Made by a program: the position numbers and the translations under genes. Below are positions 23,201 through 32,742 of a stretch of 48,426 bases of DNA, piece by piece (position 1 is the first letter of the stretch; each line of letters opens with the position of its first letter). The notes beneath the pieces were generated by a model that was not told the origin of the DNA, searched no databases, and worked only from the letters and a program-made list of their open reading frames with translations. Source of the DNA: a virus; IMG/VR virus record IMGVR_UViG_3300024348_000069, positions 1 to 48,426 of that record, one strand, 5' to 3'.

Positions 23201-23832
23201 CTGCTCCAGAGTTTAATTCTAGCAGTCAATATTTTATATATGTCGATGAAAATCCAAATACTTTTGGAGGCTCAAGAAATATTGTAACAACTGGCGTTCA
23301 GACTAAGACGATCACATTGACAGATGACTGGCAATTGGCTGATAGATTCTCGCAGCCACAATTTACTGTATCCAAGGCGGTAAAATTCAACGCACAGCCA
23401 CTATATCTCACTATCGCAATGCATGATGAGGCTAAGGTAAACAGTATTGTCGTTGAAGAAATAACTCAAGATAATGTGCAAGTAAGTACTCCTAAATTCA
23501 TTAAAGGCGATGAGTGTCCTAACTTGTCTATCGTAGCAAGTGGACTATCTAGTGACGTGTTATCACCTTCTGCATTCATATCGGAAGATAAGCAATCTAG
23601 CATTAGATTTGATACACAGACATTGAACCCTCTAAGACCAGGAGTCAACATATATTCGTTCTTTATTGCGGCCAACATACCTGCACAATTCGACTTATCT
23701 AATATATTCGGTAGAGACAGAAAAGGATTAGCTAGAGGATTGCTAAATAATCAAGCAGTGTTCTTGACTGCATCATCAGTTGACGGATCTACAGGTAATA
23801 TAGAAATGACTCTTACGGCAAAGGAACAATAA
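20299..23832 (+). CDS. Large virion protein, paralogue B of a tandem pair
   Basis: 1177 residues, three bases after paralogue A. The N-terminal 70 residues (KQFTQLIDIEGNLLFDAAGNPV) are unique. From about residue 72 it follows paralogue A: IPVEEQ...SLLGVPRAEEQL, FSDVSTY and W, then KTFRYQPGRASGFTFGVR, KIEFSWYGAIGAKFYAYAP, GEARWILMH and KYGSSYYVDGGDEGTI. The DNA over the KIEFSWYG block is almost identical to that in paralogue A. Residues about 649-695 carry a VYKITSLGNTTNQQWNTAAGT...GTGTGTVVDN module. Paralogue A's Cys-Arg-Asp helical repeats are less obvious here; QIERYTYIFGRMIDG may be a diverged counterpart. A structural or adhesin role is inferred. The stop overlaps the start of the LRR gene by one base (TAATG). 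Confidence 0.65.
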   Translation: MPKQIKLGLDKVPAPVTKQFTQLIDIEGNLLFDAAGNPVITEDEATLGSFSTSAGSTSININNRDNNPIISIPVEEQFSETSEVSSSLLGVPRAEEQLSLFSDVSTYGLDEDNWNYYTFSGNSSPAEWYNKENPIFGSRQNPAFYEGSEEQALYLKSFPSQYTFPGSTIAENRSTATETMKSYMNFIAMGRYLYNIFEPINPVFAESNFLNSNIEVVNSQNTTIPTATAGAFIKESLSFNGDGNFFDVEYGPDFQDSCNQIERYTYIFGRMIDGDAGFPDLPTNQYPQGPDFTDTDIGRAAREFLAKNCRPGGSSTSEKFAILQSNKTFRYQPGRASGFTFGVRQQTDTSSSASFIEWGCSNDTDEYMFQLRGSTFNIIRRSTIRMPDALLVRQGLEASDQSDKAIQPKGVGTGDALWETVIPRTKFNGDSMLGSGKSGYILSFEDVTMYKIEFSWYGAIGAKFYAYAPASVGEARWILMHTFVIENGLGKPVLNNPDFKFKYLIYTADTATLKYPIYLYKYGSSYYVDGGDEGTINLTSVTADSKEFTQRTPIIGILPKQELTNTAGDGILNFKKAYPTTLSVTSDKATRVDIESIAGSPDGVHYSYAPSLHNGTHALSRNLNFKFNGTVGSTIDLPTGNTVSGGNFVVGTVYKITSLGNTTNQQWNTAAGTSGINYSVTGTYNCFTAATAGTGTGTVVDNILDIKDDYGKIIADGIYNTYLRYNEFNKSSSPVYRKQGYNLVTGGDVRISKSQKMDGSVIDTSTGPTFSGKITNFHSVSTSTVPIQANNFKIHWLDPDSRASSTVYRHFTDYAICIGENLGFVDGTDGNKLKYTKGDGTTVPFNFDDVISVKGSQVGTAINYSNKAEYVEWDPSYGDRFDVDVRLPRPAGEDSGSVSAVKGEVRVVNYGVSSVEEGTGDFAGKFKITFSSSAPTASMFPLDSTGAVIPGTSEVGVNGEGLGIFYVTAPEFNSSSQYFIYVDENPNTFGGSRNIVTTGVQTKTITLTDDWQLADRFSQPQFTVSKAVKFNAQPLYLTIAMHDEAKVNSIVVEEITQDNVQVSTPKFIKGDECPNLSIVASGLSSDVLSPSAFISEDKQSSIRFDTQTLNPLRPGVNIYSFFIAANIPAQFDLSNIFGRDRKGLARGLLNNQAVFLTASSVDGSTGNIEMTLTAKEQ

Positions 23833-26318
23833 TGGCTACTTTTAGAGGCTTAAACGTCCAAAAAGCATTGAACGATGTCGATAATAAGTCGCAGTCGCTA
23901 ATCAACTTGGGTCTAGACCAGCGAGATTTGTCTCTGTTACAAGGTATTACTGCGGCAGGAATATCAACCAGTGAACTACATACACTAGCCAATCTAGTAG
24001 AAGATCAGAAAAAGGTTCTATATTCTCTGGCCGAATCCTCTGAAACTCTTAGTGGGATACTAACGGGATTAAGCGATATTCAAGTACCTCAAGAGTATAA
24101 CGTAAGATATGATGACCAAGTAAGAGCATCTGCGATCAAGTATAATTATTTAGATTTCTCTCTTTATGGCAATGCCAATGAAACAAAGAGCGCAGACATA
24201 TCAACATCCCGAGTATCTTCTTGGTCAACAATTGGCACATCAATACTCTATGGAGGCGAAATTAAAGTTACTGGTTCTCAGATTGAACTGTCTTCTTTAA
24301 AAACAACTTCTAATCCAGTCACGAAGCTTTTCAGATCAGAAGTGCCAACACATACAGTAAAACTGAATATTAATGGCTCACCCCAAACCTTTCTTGCGAT
24401 GAAAGGCATACCGATGGAACTACAAGGGTTCTTTCGAAATGCCAATTTTAGTCATGCAGTTACAGCAGTGAGCGACACTCAGGGTGACGTGCCTGGCACA
24501 TGGAGAATAGTTAATAACGACAACGGACAAACATATAACTCTGGTGATGGCACTTCGGCACATCCAGGCAATCGTGGAGTAGGAGCAGTAGGAGCACCAG
24601 CGACATACCCATTTAATGATAGTAGTAGCAGATCAAGAACAGTTCAGTTTTATTACGATCCTTCTAAAATTCTTGAATTACGTACTCCTGGAATAAACCT
24701 AACCGAGTGGACGACATCTAAGTTACCAGTTTTGGAAAGACTCGGGTTGAATAATAATGACTTATATGTGTTACCTAGTTTCAGAAGTGATGCTTCTAGT
24801 AAAGATGGCATACTGACTCCAGGAGGACTTGCTCCAGTCTTAGAACGTATAGACATAAGCTCTAATAACTTATCTAGAGCGAGACACGCAGACGGCACAC
24901 AGATTGTCGCTAATCATCAGCTAAACACTTTGCCTACAACACTCACACATTTGACCATGAATGGCGTGTTTTCAGATAGCACAGATATCGATCTTCTAGA
25001 TTATGAAAATTTATCCTCTTTAATCTTCGGAACATATTATTCTCGTAACGCACAGAGACGAATGACCGGAGGCGTAGTAAGTCCAAAAACTTACACTAAT
25101 GTGGCACAAAGTAAGGGCATAGCAGTATATAGAATCTACCATCAGCCAGCTACACAGTTAGCCAACGGTGTGTGTACAAGTGAAAATTTACAAGACCTAT
25201 ATTTTCCTCATACCGGAATCAGCGAAAAAGAAGGTGGCGGTGACATTACTATTGCAAGTAATGTTATATCTAATTTCGAAAGTTACAGTAATGGTCATAA
25301 CGTAGTCGATATGTCGAATAAATCTTCCCTAACCAAATACTTTCAGCAATTCTCCAGCGGAGGCAGCACTGCAAGTAGCAGGGCTATAGGAAGCAAGTTT
25401 GCTGGATGCACAAGTTTACAGCGCCTAGATTTTTACAGCTCTAGTGTGACGGGTAATATAGGCACTATATTTACATCTTTACCAGCTCTAACGTATCTAG
25501 AACTAAGGCGGACGTCCGTTAGTGGACAATTGTTTGATGATAGTTTTGCAAATACCAATTCTTTACAAAATTTCTATGTTGAAGGAACTGCTATAAACAC
25601 TGCTGATTATTTTGGCACACAGGATTCAATCGATAACAACTCTGGCAGCGGAGAAGTATTTAAGAATACGCCCGATATGAGATGGATTTATTGTTATAAT
25701 AATCGTAACATAAGAGGTAAGTTACCAGACTTTAGTTCCAATTTCGCTTTAACAGGATTATATTTTTATGGCACAGGACTTAATGGACCAATTCAAACCT
25801 TTGCTAATTGTACAAGTCTTTACTATTTAAATTTAACTAATAACGCCTTCACCGGCGCTGTTCCGGCGTTCACTGGTAACGGCCTTAAATACATATACTT
25901 GTCCTCCAATCAGCTTGCTGGTCAAATTCCTAGTTTTACCACTCCGTACCTATATCAGTTACAGTTACAATATAATAACTTTTCTGGAAATGTTCCAGAT
26001 ATGTCTGGGTGCACAAGATTGCAAAGAGTTTATCTAAACAATAATAATATAAATGGATATGTTCCAGGCGCACTACAGTATAACTCATCACTATCTATTG
26101 TAGATTTTAGTAATAATCAGTTACCTAACACAGCAGGATCGAATATCATAGCGGATCTATTTGAGAACTACAGTCTTAATCCTAGACGTGGAGTATCTGT
26201 TAACTTACTAGGTAATCCAATGAGTAGAAGTGGAATAGAAAACGATGGTACAGATGGAGATTCAAGCACGGCTAATAAATTGAGCTTCTTGGAAAACTTC
26301 TGGACTATTCTAATATAA
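23832..26318 (+). CDS. Leucine-rich-repeat virion protein, candidate adhesin
   Basis: 828 residues. The N-terminus (FRGLNVQKALNDVDNKSQSLINLGLDQRDLSLL) resembles virion-attachment segments of marine phage fibres. From about residue 270 to the end there are many leucine-rich repeats with the LxxLxLxxNxLxG pattern: LPVLERLGLNNNDL, LERIDISSNNLS, LTYLELRRTSVSGQL, LYYLNLTNNAFTGAVPAF, LKYIYLSSNQLAGQIPSF, LYQLQLQYNNFSGNVPDMSG and LQRVYLNNNNINGYVPGAL. The later repeats have the GxxP form known from plant-type and some bacterial surface LRRs. There is no signal peptide or anchor, as expected for a virion protein. Such a solenoid is well suited to binding a protein or glycan receptor; that role is inference. 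It is joined to its upstream neighbour by TAATG and lies ten bases before the next gene. Confidence 0.75.
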   Translation: MATFRGLNVQKALNDVDNKSQSLINLGLDQRDLSLLQGITAAGISTSELHTLANLVEDQKKVLYSLAESSETLSGILTGLSDIQVPQEYNVRYDDQVRASAIKYNYLDFSLYGNANETKSADISTSRVSSWSTIGTSILYGGEIKVTGSQIELSSLKTTSNPVTKLFRSEVPTHTVKLNINGSPQTFLAMKGIPMELQGFFRNANFSHAVTAVSDTQGDVPGTWRIVNNDNGQTYNSGDGTSAHPGNRGVGAVGAPATYPFNDSSSRSRTVQFYYDPSKILELRTPGINLTEWTTSKLPVLERLGLNNNDLYVLPSFRSDASSKDGILTPGGLAPVLERIDISSNNLSRARHADGTQIVANHQLNTLPTTLTHLTMNGVFSDSTDIDLLDYENLSSLIFGTYYSRNAQRRMTGGVVSPKTYTNVAQSKGIAVYRIYHQPATQLANGVCTSENLQDLYFPHTGISEKEGGGDITIASNVISNFESYSNGHNVVDMSNKSSLTKYFQQFSSGGSTASSRAIGSKFAGCTSLQRLDFYSSSVTGNIGTIFTSLPALTYLELRRTSVSGQLFDDSFANTNSLQNFYVEGTAINTADYFGTQDSIDNNSGSGEVFKNTPDMRWIYCYNNRNIRGKLPDFSSNFALTGLYFYGTGLNGPIQTFANCTSLYYLNLTNNAFTGAVPAFTGNGLKYIYLSSNQLAGQIPSFTTPYLYQLQLQYNNFSGNVPDMSGCTRLQRVYLNNNNINGYVPGALQYNSSLSIVDFSNNQLPNTAGSNIIADLFENYSLNPRRGVSVNLLGNPMSRSGIENDGTDGDSSTANKLSFLENFWTILI

Positions 26319-26328
26319 GGACTTAGAG

Positions 26329-27306
26329 ATGGCGCAAGGATTTGTAAGAACATTAAATTTTCAAGAAAGCGATACTGGAGCTTTAGATAGAGGAATACTT
26401 GATAACTTAGGCGGAATAAACATAACGGATGATTTGCTACTTTTCGACGGCAACTCAAAAAGTATTTCTAAACTTGTTGCGGCCGACTACACTGTTACGA
26501 ATGGAATAGTAACTGTGAGCGGAGAAGGTAAAGTTGCTTTCTCTGACGGAACTAAACTTTCTATAGACGGAAGTGGCTTTCCTGGAGGTAATAACTACGA
26601 CTATGAAGTTTTCAATTCCAACGGCATTGATCAATTTAAAGTAAAGGATTCATTAGGAACAGTAAATCCATCAGGCACATTGCGAAGAAGCGATTATGTT
26701 ACTCAGGCTAACATGAGTAATCTCAGTGTTAAAAGACTAGAGACATCCAACTCTATTAGCGATGGAGTATCGGCAGATCAAAATTCTGGTGGAGATGTAT
26801 TTAACGACTTTGCGTTTAATGAACAAGTGACATACATTGAAGAAGCTCTAGGGCTATTTTACTATAAGAGATCCAGAATACCTCGCACTTATGAACTAAG
26901 CACATTCAATATTCCTATTAAATTTTCTGGAGCAATTCAGATAATGAACAGTGTTGCAACACCAACAACAGTGCCAGATGACGATAGTCCAGGCTTGTTT
27001 ATCGTGGACGCTTCAAACCCGTCTACTGCCGCTGTACGTGCGTTTAGCGATTCATCTAACCCATGGTCCCAGGTTGCTACTGGCACCGCTAATGGCGCAT
27101 TGCACACAGACGAAGACAACGCTCAGGCTAACAGATTATTCTTTGATCCAGTCTCACAGCCTACTACACCAAATATCAAAACCGTCAATTCTTCAGGAAC
27201 TCAAGTCACTTTGCTCGCATCTGAAACAATCACAGTGTCAACCGCAACACACAAGTTGCCTGTCCAAATTAACGGCGAAACTTTCTTTCTACTTCTTAAA
27301 GCTTAA
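26329..27306 (+). CDS. Virion structural protein of unknown role, convergent with minus-strand gene
   Basis: 325 residues. It is beta-rich and acidic, without a catalytic motif: FVRTLNFQESDTGALDRGIL at the start, a central ...LGLFYYKRSRIPRTYELSTF stretch, and a C-terminus THKLPVQINGETFFLLLKA. The last motif resembles the C-terminus of the minus-strand neighbour (SKYFPIQTPSGTTYKILIA) and, as I recall, endings of other marine phage structural proteins. Its stop codon overlaps that of the opposing gene inside the palindrome AGCTTAAGCT. It probably belongs to the same late transcript as the LRR gene. The function is not recognised; fibre-associated by location only. Confidence 0.55.
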   Translation: MAQGFVRTLNFQESDTGALDRGILDNLGGINITDDLLLFDGNSKSISKLVAADYTVTNGIVTVSGEGKVAFSDGTKLSIDGSGFPGGNNYDYEVFNSNGIDQFKVKDSLGTVNPSGTLRRSDYVTQANMSNLSVKRLETSNSISDGVSADQNSGGDVFNDFAFNEQVTYIEEALGLFYYKRSRIPRTYELSTFNIPIKFSGAIQIMNSVATPTTVPDDDSPGLFIVDASNPSTAAVRAFSDSSNPWSQVATGTANGALHTDEDNAQANRLFFDPVSQPTTPNIKTVNSSGTQVTLLASETITVSTATHKLPVQINGETFFLLLKA

Positions 27307-29801
27307 GCTATTAGTATCTTGTAAGTAGTTCCTGATGGAGTTTGTATTGGAAAATACTTGCTTGATGTGGGCGGTGCTGATATCGAGACAATATGATTTG
27401 TCGGCAAAGTTAACGCTAATTCGCCAAAAGATAGTCCCTCGACCTCTAAGTTTGGGTTTGATGAAGGTGTAGCAAGACCTAACTCCGTGCCTTCAAATGG
27501 CGGTGCAGTATTCAGAGGAATAATGCAGAACTCTTTGTTTCTCGTTGCTACGACATTACCCGGATCATTTTTACAAAAAACTAACGTTGAGGCAGCATTT
27601 AAAGAGCCATTGACCGAAGCTGTAAGCGTGATAGTGGTGCCATTGACAATAGAAGCAACTGTTGTGCCGTAGGTAACAACTGGAGTTCCAATTAGATTTC
27701 CACTCGAATCTTTAAGTCTGCCATCAAACTGTACAAAGTCTCCGACAGAAACTCCACTACTGGTTGTCAACACGACCGAATTGCCAGTTGTAGTTGCCGC
27801 TACTTCTCTACCATAAACTCCTGCACATGAAAGAACTGAAGACTTATCGTCTAGACCACGACTTGCATAGACTGCAACTATAGAGCCTCCAGCAGGTCCT
27901 GATAGGTTTCCTCCAGATACAGTAATATTGTTTTGACTTCCTGCTATAGTAGACAAGATGGTTCTTCTTCTAGTTGTAGAGTTAGACGTTCCATTATCGG
28001 CAACACCGAACAGTAACATATCTTCATACACCCTAGATGGCTCGGGTCCTTCTCCAGACATAGAATATAAAGAACCAGTAGCTCCACCACTAGAGCTTAA
28101 CTTATAAACTCCCACCAGTCCATTGTTCTTCCATATCATAGAACTAAACGTACCGTTAACTGCTATGCCAGTATCGGTCTTAATAGTATCCTTCACGTAT
28201 GCGTAATAAACTGTCCCCTCAGGATTAGATCCACTTATCTCTCTTAACTGATAGGTGTAGTATGTGGAACCATTTTTAAACGTTATCCAATCTCCTACTG
28301 AACATCCAGTCCAGTTTGCAGCCCCAATTTTACCAAACGTATCGATCATAGTCACAGTCTTCATAGTCACTGAAGTGTTGGCGCCAGTGACAGACACAAG
28401 TTTCTCGCTGTGAAGTTTTGGTATAGTATATGGCATGGATAGAGTAGCATTAACTCTAATAGGACTAGTAGATAGCTGGTTCAAAAATCCAGCTTTACCG
28501 TCTTCGAAGTATTTGTAAGTGAATGGACCAAAAACTTGATTTCGGTCGAACGTAGAATATAATCTATTAAAGGGAAGCTTATCGTTGTCTAAAGTGTATT
28601 CAGCAAACCTTTTATTCACATAATTTGCTCCAGTAGGAGTACCCGTGCCAAATCCTGCGGCGTCATTAGTTATGGTTGGATACCAAACCGTGTATCTAAC
28701 TCTAACTCTACCACCTCTTTTTTGAGGAGTAAAACGTATTGGACTACCTACGATATCTACACCACCAGAATGATCGAATGTCACAGTGCCACTATATCCT
28801 GATACCGGCACTGTACAAGTTTTACCAATAATATCTACGCTTTTTACAACTTGTCCTGCGGCTAAAGCGGCGTTATAACTCTGACCAGGTTTTCTGGCTA
28901 CCATTCCGACGCACACGTATTTTTCTCCAGTAGGAGACGCATTTGTCAGATCCATAGTGGTTACTCCACTGCTTACAGTGAACGTGATGCCCGTTATTGC
29001 TTGACTAAAGTTAAACACGCTCTTTAATTGCGTCCAATTATTATCATTTCCTGCGTCAACTACGTCCTCCTCGATCATAAATAAACCAGTAGACTCCCAC
29101 TCTTGTGCATAGTCTCCTGACAAATATCCTATCCATTGAATAAGACCATATGTGTCTGGAAAAGATGGATGCAACTTAGCAGAGAAATCGAATACGCCGT
29201 CGTTCCAAAAATCGACGGGATATACCATGTCTCGATAATCGCTAACAAGAGAAGTGGAGAACAGATTGTTGCCTAACGAACCAATAGGATTAGTACTCAA
29301 ATTGCCTGTTGTTGAAACAGATGTAACGGGATTGATTCTATCGGATGTCACAAAGCGAGCAATAGGACCATCCCCGCCATCAATCCATGGAGGATTGCCT
29401 ATAACTGATTTAGAATTACTAATATGGTCCTGTAAGGTTCTCGTGGGCTGTACTGGCAGATTGGTACCAGGAGATATAGGTACGGTCGAAACGTTTCCAT
29501 CTGCATCAGTTGTAGTGGTCGTTAAAGATGTTCCTACACCTACGGTGAACTTGACTACACTGTCATTAAGAGCAAGCAAATCTGAAGATTGTCCTGCGTC
29601 ATTTACACTATCGCTCAATCCAGTGTTTCTTAGTCCTTTCACAGGTCTTATATCTTCTATAGTGAACCCGGTGCTATCACCGTCCTCATCTCTTGCGCTT
29701 GAGATATTGTCAAGCACGTTAGATAACGCCGAATCTGGATTGGTTAGATCCGATAAATTTTTATCTGCCCTTAGGCCGAACTTTAAGTATTTTGTGGTCA
29801 T
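27303..29801 (-). CDS. Virion structural/fibre-like protein on the opposite strand
   Basis: 832 residues from the chosen start, and the only minus-strand gene seen. A longer reading begins at 29858, but that would place the late promoter inside the gene; starting at 29801 gives MTTKYLKFGLRADKNLSDL, a start I associate with virion proteins of marine T4-like phages, and leaves a leader of usual length. Features: RNTGLSDSVNDAG early, a DGVFDFSAKLHPSFPDTYGLIQWIGYLSG region (about residue 200), RVRVRYTVWYP (about 350), SVTGANTSVTMKTV, a SVGDFVQFDGRLKDSSGN strand region and a C-terminal YFPIQTPSGTTYKILIA. No enzyme motif is visible. Likely a fibre or collar-type structural protein. Its reversed orientation within a long plus-strand late block is the odd point. 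Confidence 0.65.
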   Translation of the reverse strand: MTTKYLKFGLRADKNLSDLTNPDSALSNVLDNISSARDEDGDSTGFTIEDIRPVKGLRNTGLSDSVNDAGQSSDLLALNDSVVKFTVGVGTSLTTTTTDADGNVSTVPISPGTNLPVQPTRTLQDHISNSKSVIGNPPWIDGGDGPIARFVTSDRINPVTSVSTTGNLSTNPIGSLGNNLFSTSLVSDYRDMVYPVDFWNDGVFDFSAKLHPSFPDTYGLIQWIGYLSGDYAQEWESTGLFMIEEDVVDAGNDNNWTQLKSVFNFSQAITGITFTVSSGVTTMDLTNASPTGEKYVCVGMVARKPGQSYNAALAAGQVVKSVDIIGKTCTVPVSGYSGTVTFDHSGGVDIVGSPIRFTPQKRGGRVRVRYTVWYPTITNDAAGFGTGTPTGANYVNKRFAEYTLDNDKLPFNRLYSTFDRNQVFGPFTYKYFEDGKAGFLNQLSTSPIRVNATLSMPYTIPKLHSEKLVSVTGANTSVTMKTVTMIDTFGKIGAANWTGCSVGDWITFKNGSTYYTYQLREISGSNPEGTVYYAYVKDTIKTDTGIAVNGTFSSMIWKNNGLVGVYKLSSSGGATGSLYSMSGEGPEPSRVYEDMLLFGVADNGTSNSTTRRRTILSTIAGSQNNITVSGGNLSGPAGGSIVAVYASRGLDDKSSVLSCAGVYGREVAATTTGNSVVLTTSSGVSVGDFVQFDGRLKDSSGNLIGTPVVTYGTTVASIVNGTTITLTASVNGSLNAASTLVFCKNDPGNVVATRNKEFCIIPLNTAPPFEGTELGLATPSSNPNLEVEGLSFGELALTLPTNHIVSISAPPTSSKYFPIQTPSGTTYKILIA

Positions 29802-29836
29802 TTTAAATCCAATGTTGTTGATGGCTCTGTTCTTAT

Positions 29837-29844
29837 TATTTATA
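29837..29844 (-). promoter_or_regulatory. Late promoter (TATAAATA) for the minus-strand gene
   Basis: Exact TATAAATA on the minus strand, 35 bases before the chosen minus-strand start codon. It overlaps by four bases a plus-strand copy, forming the palindrome TATTTATAAATA at 29837-29848. Confidence 0.7.
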
Positions 29845-29848
29845 AATA
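29841..29848 (+). promoter_or_regulatory. Late promoter (TATAAATA) for the rightward fibre genes
   Basis: Exact TATAAATA in the divergent intergenic gap, 26 bases before the start codon of the small virion gene. It is the right half of the same palindrome that carries the minus-strand promoter, so two polymerases could not occupy both halves at once. Confidence 0.75.
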
Positions 29849-29874
29849 CAAGTAGCATACATTAGGGAAAAATC

Positions 29875-30216
29875 ATGGCAATTAAAGCAAATATTGTAAT
29901 AGATCAAGGCACTGATTTCTCTGCATTGATCGATGTAGAATCATCAGCCGGAGGCTCCATAGGGGTCTACGATTTAACTGGTTTCACAGTAGCCTCTCAG
30001 ATGAGGAAAACTTACGCATCTGCATCACCAGCCGCAACGTTCGGCTGTTCGCATAATGGTGCGTTGGGACAAATATCAATAACACTGGCTAATGCAGTAA
30101 CTAACGCATTGGAGCCTGGAAGATATCTATACGATATCGAGATTACTTCTAGCGGTGGAGCTAAACAGCGAGTCGTAGAAGGAGTCGTAACAGTAACAGC
30201 AGGAATGACGAGATAG
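29875..30216 (+). CDS. Small virion protein, Ig-like beta-sandwich candidate
   Basis: 113 residues. The pattern VIDQGTDFSALIDV, then YDLTGFTVASQMRKTY, GQISITLANAVTNALEPGRYLYDIEIT and a final QRVVEGVVTVTAGMTR is a recurring small protein family next to baseplate and fibre genes in many tailed phages. In that family the DLTGY...QMRK and GRYxYDxEI blocks are strands of one beta-sandwich, like the N-terminal domain of some upper-baseplate proteins. It begins the rightward unit after the divergent promoter and has a strong leader (GGGA six bases before ATG) that is nearly repeated before the chaperone-like gene at 38149. A connector role between baseplate and fibre is inferred. Confidence 0.7.
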   Translation: MAIKANIVIDQGTDFSALIDVESSAGGSIGVYDLTGFTVASQMRKTYASASPAATFGCSHNGALGQISITLANAVTNALEPGRYLYDIEITSSGGAKQRVVEGVVTVTAGMTR

Positions 30217-30220
30217 CATA

Positions 30221-30439
30221 ATGGCAAATATAAAGGCGAAGCTTACGCCGCAACAGAATTTCTTAGTAACCAATTACCAGATCAATGCCGCCACTATCAG
30301 ACTCGGTGACCTCTTTGACGTAGACGGAACTGGGCAAGAAGACGGGGCTATCATTGTCTACAATGGTACCAGTACGAAGTGGGAAGCTTCTACTGAACTC
30401 GATAATATAAATACAATTATAAATGGAGGCAACTTTTAA
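30221..30439 (+). CDS. Small fibre-associated protein
   Basis: 72 residues, four bases after the previous stop. Sequence signs: an N-terminal lysine-rich ANIKAKLTPQQNFLVTNY, a GDLFDVDGTGQEDGAIIVYNG turn and a KWEAST...INGGNF ending. Short proteins ending in NTxINGGxF recur directly before large fibre genes in marine T4-like phages as I recall. Its last codons contain the late promoter for the next gene, and its stop overlaps the next start (TAATG), so the two are translationally linked as well. The function is unknown; attachment of the following fibre is plausible. Confidence 0.65.
   Translation: MANIKAKLTPQQNFLVTNYQINAATIRLGDLFDVDGTGQEDGAIIVYNGTSTKWEASTELDNINTIINGGNF
30406..30413 (+). promoter_or_regulatory. 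T4-type late promoter (TATAAATA) for the repeat-rich fibre
   Basis: Exact TATAAATA within the last codons of the 72-residue gene, 25 bases before the start of the 767-residue fibre. The spacing matches that of the divergent promoter to its gene (26 bases), which argues for function despite the in-gene location. Confidence 0.6.
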
Positions 30440-32742
30440 TGTCTATAATTAAGATCAGAAGATCCACCGGCACGGCAGCACCGTCCAACGTTCTCGCATT
30501 AGGCGAGATGGGATATGCTTACGGTAGTGGCACACAAGCAAACGGCGGTGATAGACTATTTATCGGTACCGGCGGCGAAACTAATAACCTAGCAAATGTC
30601 GTTGATGTTATTGGCGGTAAGTACTTTACAGACTTACTAGATCACGTTCACGGAACTAGAACCGCTAGCTCTGCGTTAATCGTAGACGCTAACGGTAAAC
30701 TAGATGTATTGGATGTAGATAACTTAAAGTTAGACGCAAACACTATATCTTCAACCAACACTAACGGCAATATTATACTTGATCCTGCCGGCACAGGTAC
30801 GATTGAATTAGATGCTATTACCAACTTTGCATCTAGCGCAACATTTACTGGATTACTTAATGCTGATGGTGGCATTGCAGTAGATACAAACAAATTCACA
30901 GTAGCAGATACGACTGGTAACACTTTAATCGCAGGTACTTTAGGCGTTACTGGCGAATCAACACTTGGATCCGCAATTGTTAGTGATTTAACAGATAATC
31001 GTGTTGTAATTGCAGGTACCGCAGGCGCTCTAGAAGATGATTCGAACTTTACGTTCGACGGAACAACGTTTAAAGTTGGCACAGATACTACCGATAAGTT
31101 TACAGTCGCAGTAGCAACAGGCAACACTGCAATTGATGGCACACTAGGAGTTACTGGCGAGTCAACTTTAGCATCTGCTACCGTAAGTGATTTGACAGAC
31201 AATCGTATTGTTATTGCTGGCACAGCAGGCGCTCTAGAAGATGACGCTAATCTAACATTCAACGGAACGACATTCACAGTTGCGGCCGCTACACAACTTA
31301 CTGGCGTAGCTACTGTAACAGGTCAATTAAACGTAGACAACATTCGTGTTGATGCTAATACTATATCTTCTACTAACTCTAACGGCAACATCGTGTTGGA
31401 TCCAGCTGGTACTGGATATGTGACAATTACTGGAACAAATGGATTTGTTATTCCAGTTGGTACAAATGCTCAACAGGGACCTAATGTCGCTGGTGCTATT
31501 AGATATAACAGTGAGAATACTCAATTCGAAGGATACTCAGGAGCTAATTGGTCATCACTCGGTGGTGTACGTTCAGTTGACGGTCTAACATATATCATTG
31601 CTGAAACTAGTCCTGGTAACTCAGACGATACACTACACTTCTACACTGCAACAGGGGCGGCCGCTAATAAAAGAGCAATGTTTCTTGATGAAGATCAGCT
31701 AAGTGTTTTAAACGACACTGCGTCTTCATCTAGCACAACGGGATCATTTATTACTGCCGGCGGTGCGGGTATTGCTAAAGACCTCTATGTTGGCGAAAAC
31801 GGCGTATTCACACTCGATGTAGCAGTCAATGGTGGCGATCTAACAACAACCGCAACCACGTTTAATTTAATTAACACGAATGCAACGACACTTAATATTG
31901 GTGGTGCGGCAACAGCAGTAGATATTGGTGTTGCAACCAAGACTGTTACCAACGTATTCGATGGCACAACTTCTATTAATCATAATGCCTCTGTTGATGG
32001 GGACTTTAGCGTAGGCGCCGGGAACTTCACAGTAGCACATTTAACAGGTAACGCTGAAACTGCTGGCAATATGGTTGTTCAAGGAGATTTAACTGTAAAT
32101 GGTACTACTACCTCTGTAAATACCGACACTCTAGACGTTGAAGATGCTCTGATTAGATTAGCATCTGGTAACACTGCCGATACAGTTGATATTGGTTTTG
32201 TAGGTAGATACAGTGATGGAACAAACGACCAGTTTGCAGGTCTCTTCAGAGATGCAACAGGAAAAGAATGGCACTTATTCGATGAGTACATAGATACGGA
32301 TCTTACCGATAATGTCATTGACTTGTCAGATGCTTCGTTTAGCCTGGCTAACTTGAACCTAGATGTTGTTAAATTCAGTCAGAAGTCGTTTACTCTTACC
32401 GGTGATGTAGCTGGTACTATCAATATGACTGACATGGGTTCTACTAACCACTCTATGGCAGTTACGATTCAGCCCAACTCGGTTGCTCTTGGTACCGATA
32501 CGACTGGTAATTATATTGCTACTATCGTACAAGCTACAGGCGGTGCAACAGACAATAATAGTACAACAAACAATGGACTAGTAATAACAGGAAGTGGTAC
32601 AGAAACTGCCGCAGTAACATTGAAGAACAACTTAGCAGATACAGCAGGTGGAATTGGTACGTCTACATATGACGCAACTAATTTTGATGTCAGTGCCGCC
32701 GGAGTTGTTACTGTTGATACCATTGATGGTGGAACGTTCTAA
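30439..32742 (+). CDS. Repeat-rich tail fibre protein
   Basis: 767 residues. The N-terminus IIKIRRSTGTAAPSNVLALGE with GDRLFIGTGGE and IGGKYFTDLLDHVHGT is a familiar fibre-attachment module of marine T4-like phages. The shaft contains two in-tandem 62-residue repeats (codons at 30892-31077 and 31096-31281) with GTLGVTGESTL, VSDLTDNR and VIAGTAGALEDD, and a separate pair of DANTISSTN..GNI.LDPAGTG segments at 30730-30798 and 31348-31416. Near residue 549 lies a GDLTVNGTTTSVNTDTLDVED cassette shared with three other fibre genes. No S74 or lectin domain is seen. Probable role: proximal long-fibre segment that trimerises. It is preceded by its own late promoter and followed by the longest intergenic gap of the window. 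Confidence 0.78.
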   Translation: MSIIKIRRSTGTAAPSNVLALGEMGYAYGSGTQANGGDRLFIGTGGETNNLANVVDVIGGKYFTDLLDHVHGTRTASSALIVDANGKLDVLDVDNLKLDANTISSTNTNGNIILDPAGTGTIELDAITNFASSATFTGLLNADGGIAVDTNKFTVADTTGNTLIAGTLGVTGESTLGSAIVSDLTDNRVVIAGTAGALEDDSNFTFDGTTFKVGTDTTDKFTVAVATGNTAIDGTLGVTGESTLASATVSDLTDNRIVIAGTAGALEDDANLTFNGTTFTVAAATQLTGVATVTGQLNVDNIRVDANTISSTNSNGNIVLDPAGTGYVTITGTNGFVIPVGTNAQQGPNVAGAIRYNSENTQFEGYSGANWSSLGGVRSVDGLTYIIAETSPGNSDDTLHFYTATGAAANKRAMFLDEDQLSVLNDTASSSSTTGSFITAGGAGIAKDLYVGENGVFTLDVAVNGGDLTTTATTFNLINTNATTLNIGGAATAVDIGVATKTVTNVFDGTTSINHNASVDGDFSVGAGNFTVAHLTGNAETAGNMVVQGDLTVNGTTTSVNTDTLDVEDALIRLASGNTADTVDIGFVGRYSDGTNDQFAGLFRDATGKEWHLFDEYIDTDLTDNVIDLSDASFSLANLNLDVVKFSQKSFTLTGDVAGTINMTDMGSTNHSMAVTIQPNSVALGTDTTGNYIATIVQATGGATDNNSTTNNGLVITGSGTETAAVTLKNNLADTAGGIGTSTYDATNFDVSAAGVVTVDTIDGGTF
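30892..31281 (+). repeat. Two in-tandem 62-codon fibre repeats
   Basis: The units at 30892-31077 and 31096-31281 are separated by 18 bases and encode closely similar 62-residue blocks (KFTVA..TGNT, GTLGVTGESTL, DLTDNR, VIAGTAGALEDD). A 17-base exact match, ggcgctctagaagatga, occurs in both. They are consistent with duplication of a shaft unit. Confidence 0.85.

Follow-up and report, generated by a model that had tools for sequence, protein, structure and literature searches.

The window, that is, the whole stretch of DNA that was analysed, is a contig of 48,426 bases from a virus record and probably a fragment. It encodes T4-type baseplate and tail-fibre genes, including two baseplate wedge homologs. 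Its large genes lie on the plus strand, with the exception of the gene at 27303-29801, which points away from the plus-strand gene at 29875. The start codons of these two genes (29801 on the minus and 29875 on the plus strand) flank a perfect 12-bp palindrome, TATTTATAAATA. The features of the region are the following:

27303-29801, minus strand: gene of 832 aa, no family found, conserved start MTTKYLKFGLRADKNL, possible virion protein
29802-29831, minus strand: predicted leader of about 30 nt, deduced from the octamer position of -13 to -6 (PMC1524935)
29837-29848, no strand assigned: palindrome TATTTATAAATA, proposed bidirectional late promoter; read directly, invariant over 16 junction clusters
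29837-29844, minus strand: late promoter octamer TATAAATA, exact, running from 29844 to 29837
29841-29848, plus strand: late promoter octamer TATAAATA, exact
29854-29874, plus strand: predicted leader of about 21 nt, deduced from the octamer position of -13 to -6 (PMC1524935)
29875-30216, plus strand: gene of 113 aa, homologous to proteins with the annotation "L-shaped tail fibre protein assembly" (phrog_1084, phrog_3304)
30221-30439, plus strand: gene of 72 aa, next in the plus unit
30439-32742, plus strand: structural-protein-like gene of 767 aa, downstream in the plus unit, matching virion structural families

With respect to the late-gene setting, hits to tail fibre assembly families (phrog_1084, E 3e-23; phrog_3304, E 3e-21) were obtained for the plus gene, which also has matches in 121 phage records; the minus gene is without a family. 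For the minus-strand protein no PHROGs or Pfam family was found with either the full length or the N-terminus, and phage records yielded no match by DNA similarity or tblastn. Its AlphaFold2 model was poor (pLDDT 54) and strand-rich, and the Foldseek matches obtained with this model were uninformative. Homologs of the protein are about 780 to 1180 aa long and have a recognisable N-terminal motif, KYLKFGLRADKNL. The minus-strand reading frame stays open through the palindrome up to an ATG at 29858. A start at this codon would make the palindrome part of the gene; it was discarded because in three related loci (L011, L013 and L014) the gene can start only at the equivalent of 29801. At the other end, the stop codons of the minus gene and of a convergent plus-strand gene (26329-27306) overlap by four bases (27303-27306). 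The tail-fibre region also contains an 828-aa plus-strand gene (23832-26318) with leucine-rich repeats (LRR_8, E 2e-15) and no PHROGs family.

In T4 the late promoter octamer TATAAATA is located at -13 to -6 (PMC1524935). Defined as TATAAATA with A or T at -13, the T4-type late octamer is present in exact form on both strands of the palindrome, the minus and the plus copy overlapping by TATA within TATTTATAAATA. An earlier note on this DNA had described a perfect palindrome at 29837-29848 with an exact octamer on each strand and a four-base overlap, and direct reading of the sequence confirmed this description. The leaders of about 35 and 26 bases given in the same note are correct as distances between the end of the octamer and the ATG (35 bases on the minus, 26 bases on the plus side), but not as leaders, for which the T4 spacing predicts approximately 30 and 21 nt. 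Taking the T4 octamer position as reference, the predicted starts of transcription are 29831 on the minus and 29854 on the plus strand; they lie 23 bp apart, and each is an A. Folding of the RNA of the two leaders together with the start regions revealed nothing remarkable.

TATTTATAAATA has one exact copy in the contig, compared with 0.009-0.016 copies expected per contig from Markov models of order 1-4. Single TATAAATA octamers are mildly enriched (8 seen vs 4.1 expected, a number reached in 6 of 100 shuffles of the contig). The sole minus-strand octamer precedes the one large minus-strand gene of the region. In the plus unit another TATAAATA (30406-30413) lies inside the 72-aa gene, ahead of the gene at 30439.

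To find related junctions, viral contigs were searched with the 113-aa plus protein (80 loci) and with an alignment of the N-termini of the minus-gene family (41 loci). Both octamers were exact at every locus where the minus-gene family is divergent from the plus gene; the reverse octamer, as part of the palindrome, was present in 33 of 33 such loci and in none of eight in which the gene has the same orientation as its upstream neighbour, counts that do not represent independent events, as the loci are kin to one another. Viewed from the side of the plus gene, and counting distinct junctions, the reverse octamer was found in 10 of 10 divergent arrangements vs 1 of 54 others. The junctions carrying the palindrome comprise 27 distinct sequences, which form 16 clusters at 85% identity; two of these (L118 and L121) represent another gene pair. 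The earlier note had proposed a search of related genomes for the palindrome: in these clusters, a set picked for having it, all 12 bases are invariant, while mean flank identity is 55% on the left and 68% on the right.

The sole divergent junction without the palindrome (L017) carries TATTTATATAAATA, in which both octamers are exact and overlap by two bases instead of four. Relatives possessing the genes but lacking the palindrome were named in the earlier note as evidence against its proposal, and this one case was found; the survival of both octamers there nevertheless favours the promoter reading. Because L017 keeps the two octamers in another spacing, the comparison points to a pair of promoters as the target of selection, rather than a single symmetric site. 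In five contigs with co-oriented minus-gene homologs (L118, L120, L123, L126 and L129) one palindrome each was found, at most a few kilobases upstream; its minus-strand neighbour has an N-terminus matching head-tail adaptors, and its plus-strand neighbour encodes about 105-140 aa. Its presence at another divergent pair in these contigs indicates that the palindrome follows the divergent junction. An exception is L015: the palindrome persists there, yet the gene upstream of it is tail-fibre-like, lies on the plus strand and ends 227 bases away; a recent swap of the neighbour is the simplest reading. Between this upstream gene and the promoter (L015, 3775-4000) there is a strong hairpin (-22.9 kcal/mol, first 80 bases), and any minus RNA from the L015 palindrome would be antisense to the upstream gene.

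The same 12-mer occurs in T4 itself. The T4 genome (NC_000866) contains exactly one TATTTATAAATA, at 116450-116461 between the baseplate genes 26 and 51, at distances of 21 and 17 bases from the two ATGs, and RB69 also has exactly one, at 26/51. It was absent from nine other reference T4-like genomes, including KVP40, RB49, S-PM2, P-SSM2 and HTVC008M. Ten further viral contigs, with gp51 identity down to 44%, were compared at 26/51: the palindrome is exact in nine, and in the tenth (L183) it is replaced by TATAAATATTTATA, with two exact octamers. Selection on the palindrome as such was set aside, as L017 and L183 alter the palindrome yet keep both octamers. The T4 annotation has five divergent gene pairs, one of which is palindromic. 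In two pairs, 4/53 and inh/segE, the octamers of the two strands are interlaced (the minus octamer of inh/segE being AATAAATA), and the remaining two have an octamer in the plus direction only. The sites at 4/53 (L176, T4 77349-77371) and inh/segE (L547, T4 112021-112042) represent a second compact solution beside the palindrome. In the literature searched there was no account of the T4 26/51 site as bidirectional, and there were no mapped starts for it.

Viral sequences were also scanned for copies of the palindrome that have ATGGC within the next 12-40 bases, with TAATTATAATTA serving as control palindrome. Among the matches listed, which are samples for both palindromes and include two sites counted from both strands, there was a divergent ORF on the far side in 22 of 87 cases for TATTTATAAATA vs 1 of 62 for the control (Fisher p 4e-5). 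The pairs include head closure/neck (L206) and neck/another gene (L208), and the 113-aa family was found opposite an unrelated gene starting MKTILTLKYG (L207, L232, L244, L270 and L287). A 14-base version was located between two divergent ORFs in 7 of its 103 copies in a viral scan and is not itself specific. Two contigs have multiple copies (eight palindromes in a 291-kb and six in a 72-kb contig), of which many, though not all, lie between divergent ORFs. The earlier note had called overlapping divergent late promoters unusual. This is true for the individual genome, which usually has one copy, but not across T4-like phages, where the palindrome recurs at 26/51 of T4 and RB69 and at other pairs: the palindromic arrangement is recurrent in T4-like phages, T4 included, at several gene pairs.

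In two contigs a different spacing was observed. The pattern of TATAAATA, exactly four bases and then ATG was counted 21 times in IMGVR_UViG_3300018430_000021 (291,102 bases; L246 and L571-L590) and 11 times in the L216 contig (75,221 bases), with the reversed pattern occurring 2 and 0 times and a seven-base spacing 3 times and once, respectively. Twenty of the 21 sites of the 291-kb contig were read, and all 20 start ORFs of at least 110 aa. Judged from sequence, the four-base spacing suggests leaderless late mRNAs that would start at or within the AUG in this jumbo phage, whose contig gave a weak match to gp55 (E 1e-6). At two sites of the same contig (L557 and L558, position 997 each) the arrangement CAT-N4-TATTTATAAATA-N4-ATG leaves only 20 bp between divergent genes, both of which would be leaderless.

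Comparison of the loci lends good support to the central proposal of the earlier note, that the palindrome consists of two overlapping divergent T4-type late promoters. We consider it highly probable that TATTTATAAATA serves as one bidirectional T4-type late promoter, and on the available sequences this is the best reading by a wide margin. The competing view that the plus promoter alone is active, with the reverse octamer as an AT-rich by-product or a relic and the minus gene transcribed from elsewhere, is improbable. It would be compatible with L015, where the reverse octamer occurs without a divergent gene, and with several loci at which the plus octamer alone precedes the plus-gene family in the absence of a divergent neighbour, but the reverse octamer is exact at all divergent loci and absent from the co-oriented ones, and L017 and L183 have re-formed it in other spacings. 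L015 and L012 are alike to about 15 bases past the palindrome and then have different neighbours, and members of one plus-gene family face different divergent genes; the promoter block might therefore be mainly a module boundary for the exchange of tail genes by recombination, conserved as a joint. As the main explanation this is slightly less probable still, for it explains neither why co-oriented loci have lost the reverse octamer nor why both octamers occur in other spacings (L017, L183), although a role as module boundary can coexist with a promoter role. Least probable of all is that the site binds a dimeric phage regulator or another protein and resembles late promoters only secondarily, since, even if the perfect palindrome, invariant over 16 clusters, would suit such a site, L017 and L183 change the symmetry and keep both octamers, and non-divergent members of the plus-gene family retain the plus octamer only, or no octamer.

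The first four bases of the octamer TATAAATA, TATA, are self-complementary, so two octamers can share them, which gives TATTTATAAATA. Moreover, T4 late promoters consist of a -10-like element with no conserved -35 sequence (PMC7892883), hence two of them can be fused through a common TATA. The late RNA polymerase, in which the host core is joined by the phage sigma gp55 and aided by the gp45 sliding clamp, would read TATAAATA on either strand. Two relatives (G019 and G020) encode gp55 (E 2e-62) and gp45 (E 7e-67); neither gene was found in the window, a fragment. Gp33, a short and divergent protein, was undetected in G019 and G020 and was found in T4, HTVC008M and G032.

The minus transcript would start at about 29831 and serve the 832-aa gene, and the plus transcript would start at about 29854 and serve the 113-aa tail-fibre-assembly-like gene together with those that follow it. 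The activated T4 late complex extends far upstream, with gp33 near -39 to -35, and the sliding clamp adds a footprint of about 13 bp (PMC2988020). Given this footprint size and starts 23 bp apart, back-to-back complexes should not fit, and mutual exclusion of two late complexes at the palindrome is expected. We infer that the site fires in both directions from the above positions under steric exclusion: it would be opened in either direction, never in both together, with one transcript per opening event. As the earlier note proposed, such a site might set the balance between the two transcripts. The polarity of clamp activation is set by the nicked strand (PMC2988020), which suggests that clamp orientation could choose the direction. 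It is conceivable, though rather unlikely, that the orientation of the arriving clamp determines to which side a perfectly symmetric late promoter fires, the transcript ratio being coupled to fork direction or to the nicked strand. If so, the ratio of two virion transcripts would be set by replication or nicking and not by promoter strength. Such a site would be a simple device for T4-like phages, 12 bases sufficing for a pair of divergent late genes. The question posed is how a symmetric site with the same core both ways splits initiation, and whether the oriented clamp decides; the T4 26/51 copy makes it testable in the best-understood late transcription system.

Ordinary T4-type late promoters (PMC2988020, PMC1524935) share with the window site the octamer TATAAATA and the lack of a -35 element, but they are single and directional, whereas the window site would consist of two that overlap. 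The T4 26/51 site is similar in having the identical 12-mer once per genome, flanked by divergent genes for virion assembly, and differs in the genes served and in belonging to a distant phage group. At T4 4/53 and inh/segE, opposite-strand late octamers likewise serve a divergent pair within about 50 bp; there, however, the octamers are interlaced without overlap, and the starts would be side by side. No description of overlapping T4 late promoters was found in the literature searched, which covered few subscription journals, so an earlier account is possible.

Bidirectional promoters of bacterial sigma70 are known from the work of Warman, Grainger and colleagues and are defined by divergent starts 7-25 bp apart (PMC10268837, PMC12825309); the predicted window starts, 23 bp apart by octamer position, would fall in this range. 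Also as in that class, a symmetric -10 element, here a perfect 12-bp palindrome with TATA common to both directions, would be used both ways, and steric competition is possible; in E. coli, competition between the directions occurs only at high activity (PMC12825309). The sigma70 sites have imperfect symmetry and a spacing of most commonly 18 bp, use the sigma70 of the host and often give rise to a non-coding antisense RNA, whereas in the window two protein genes flank a palindrome that is perfect and made up of the gp55 octamer.
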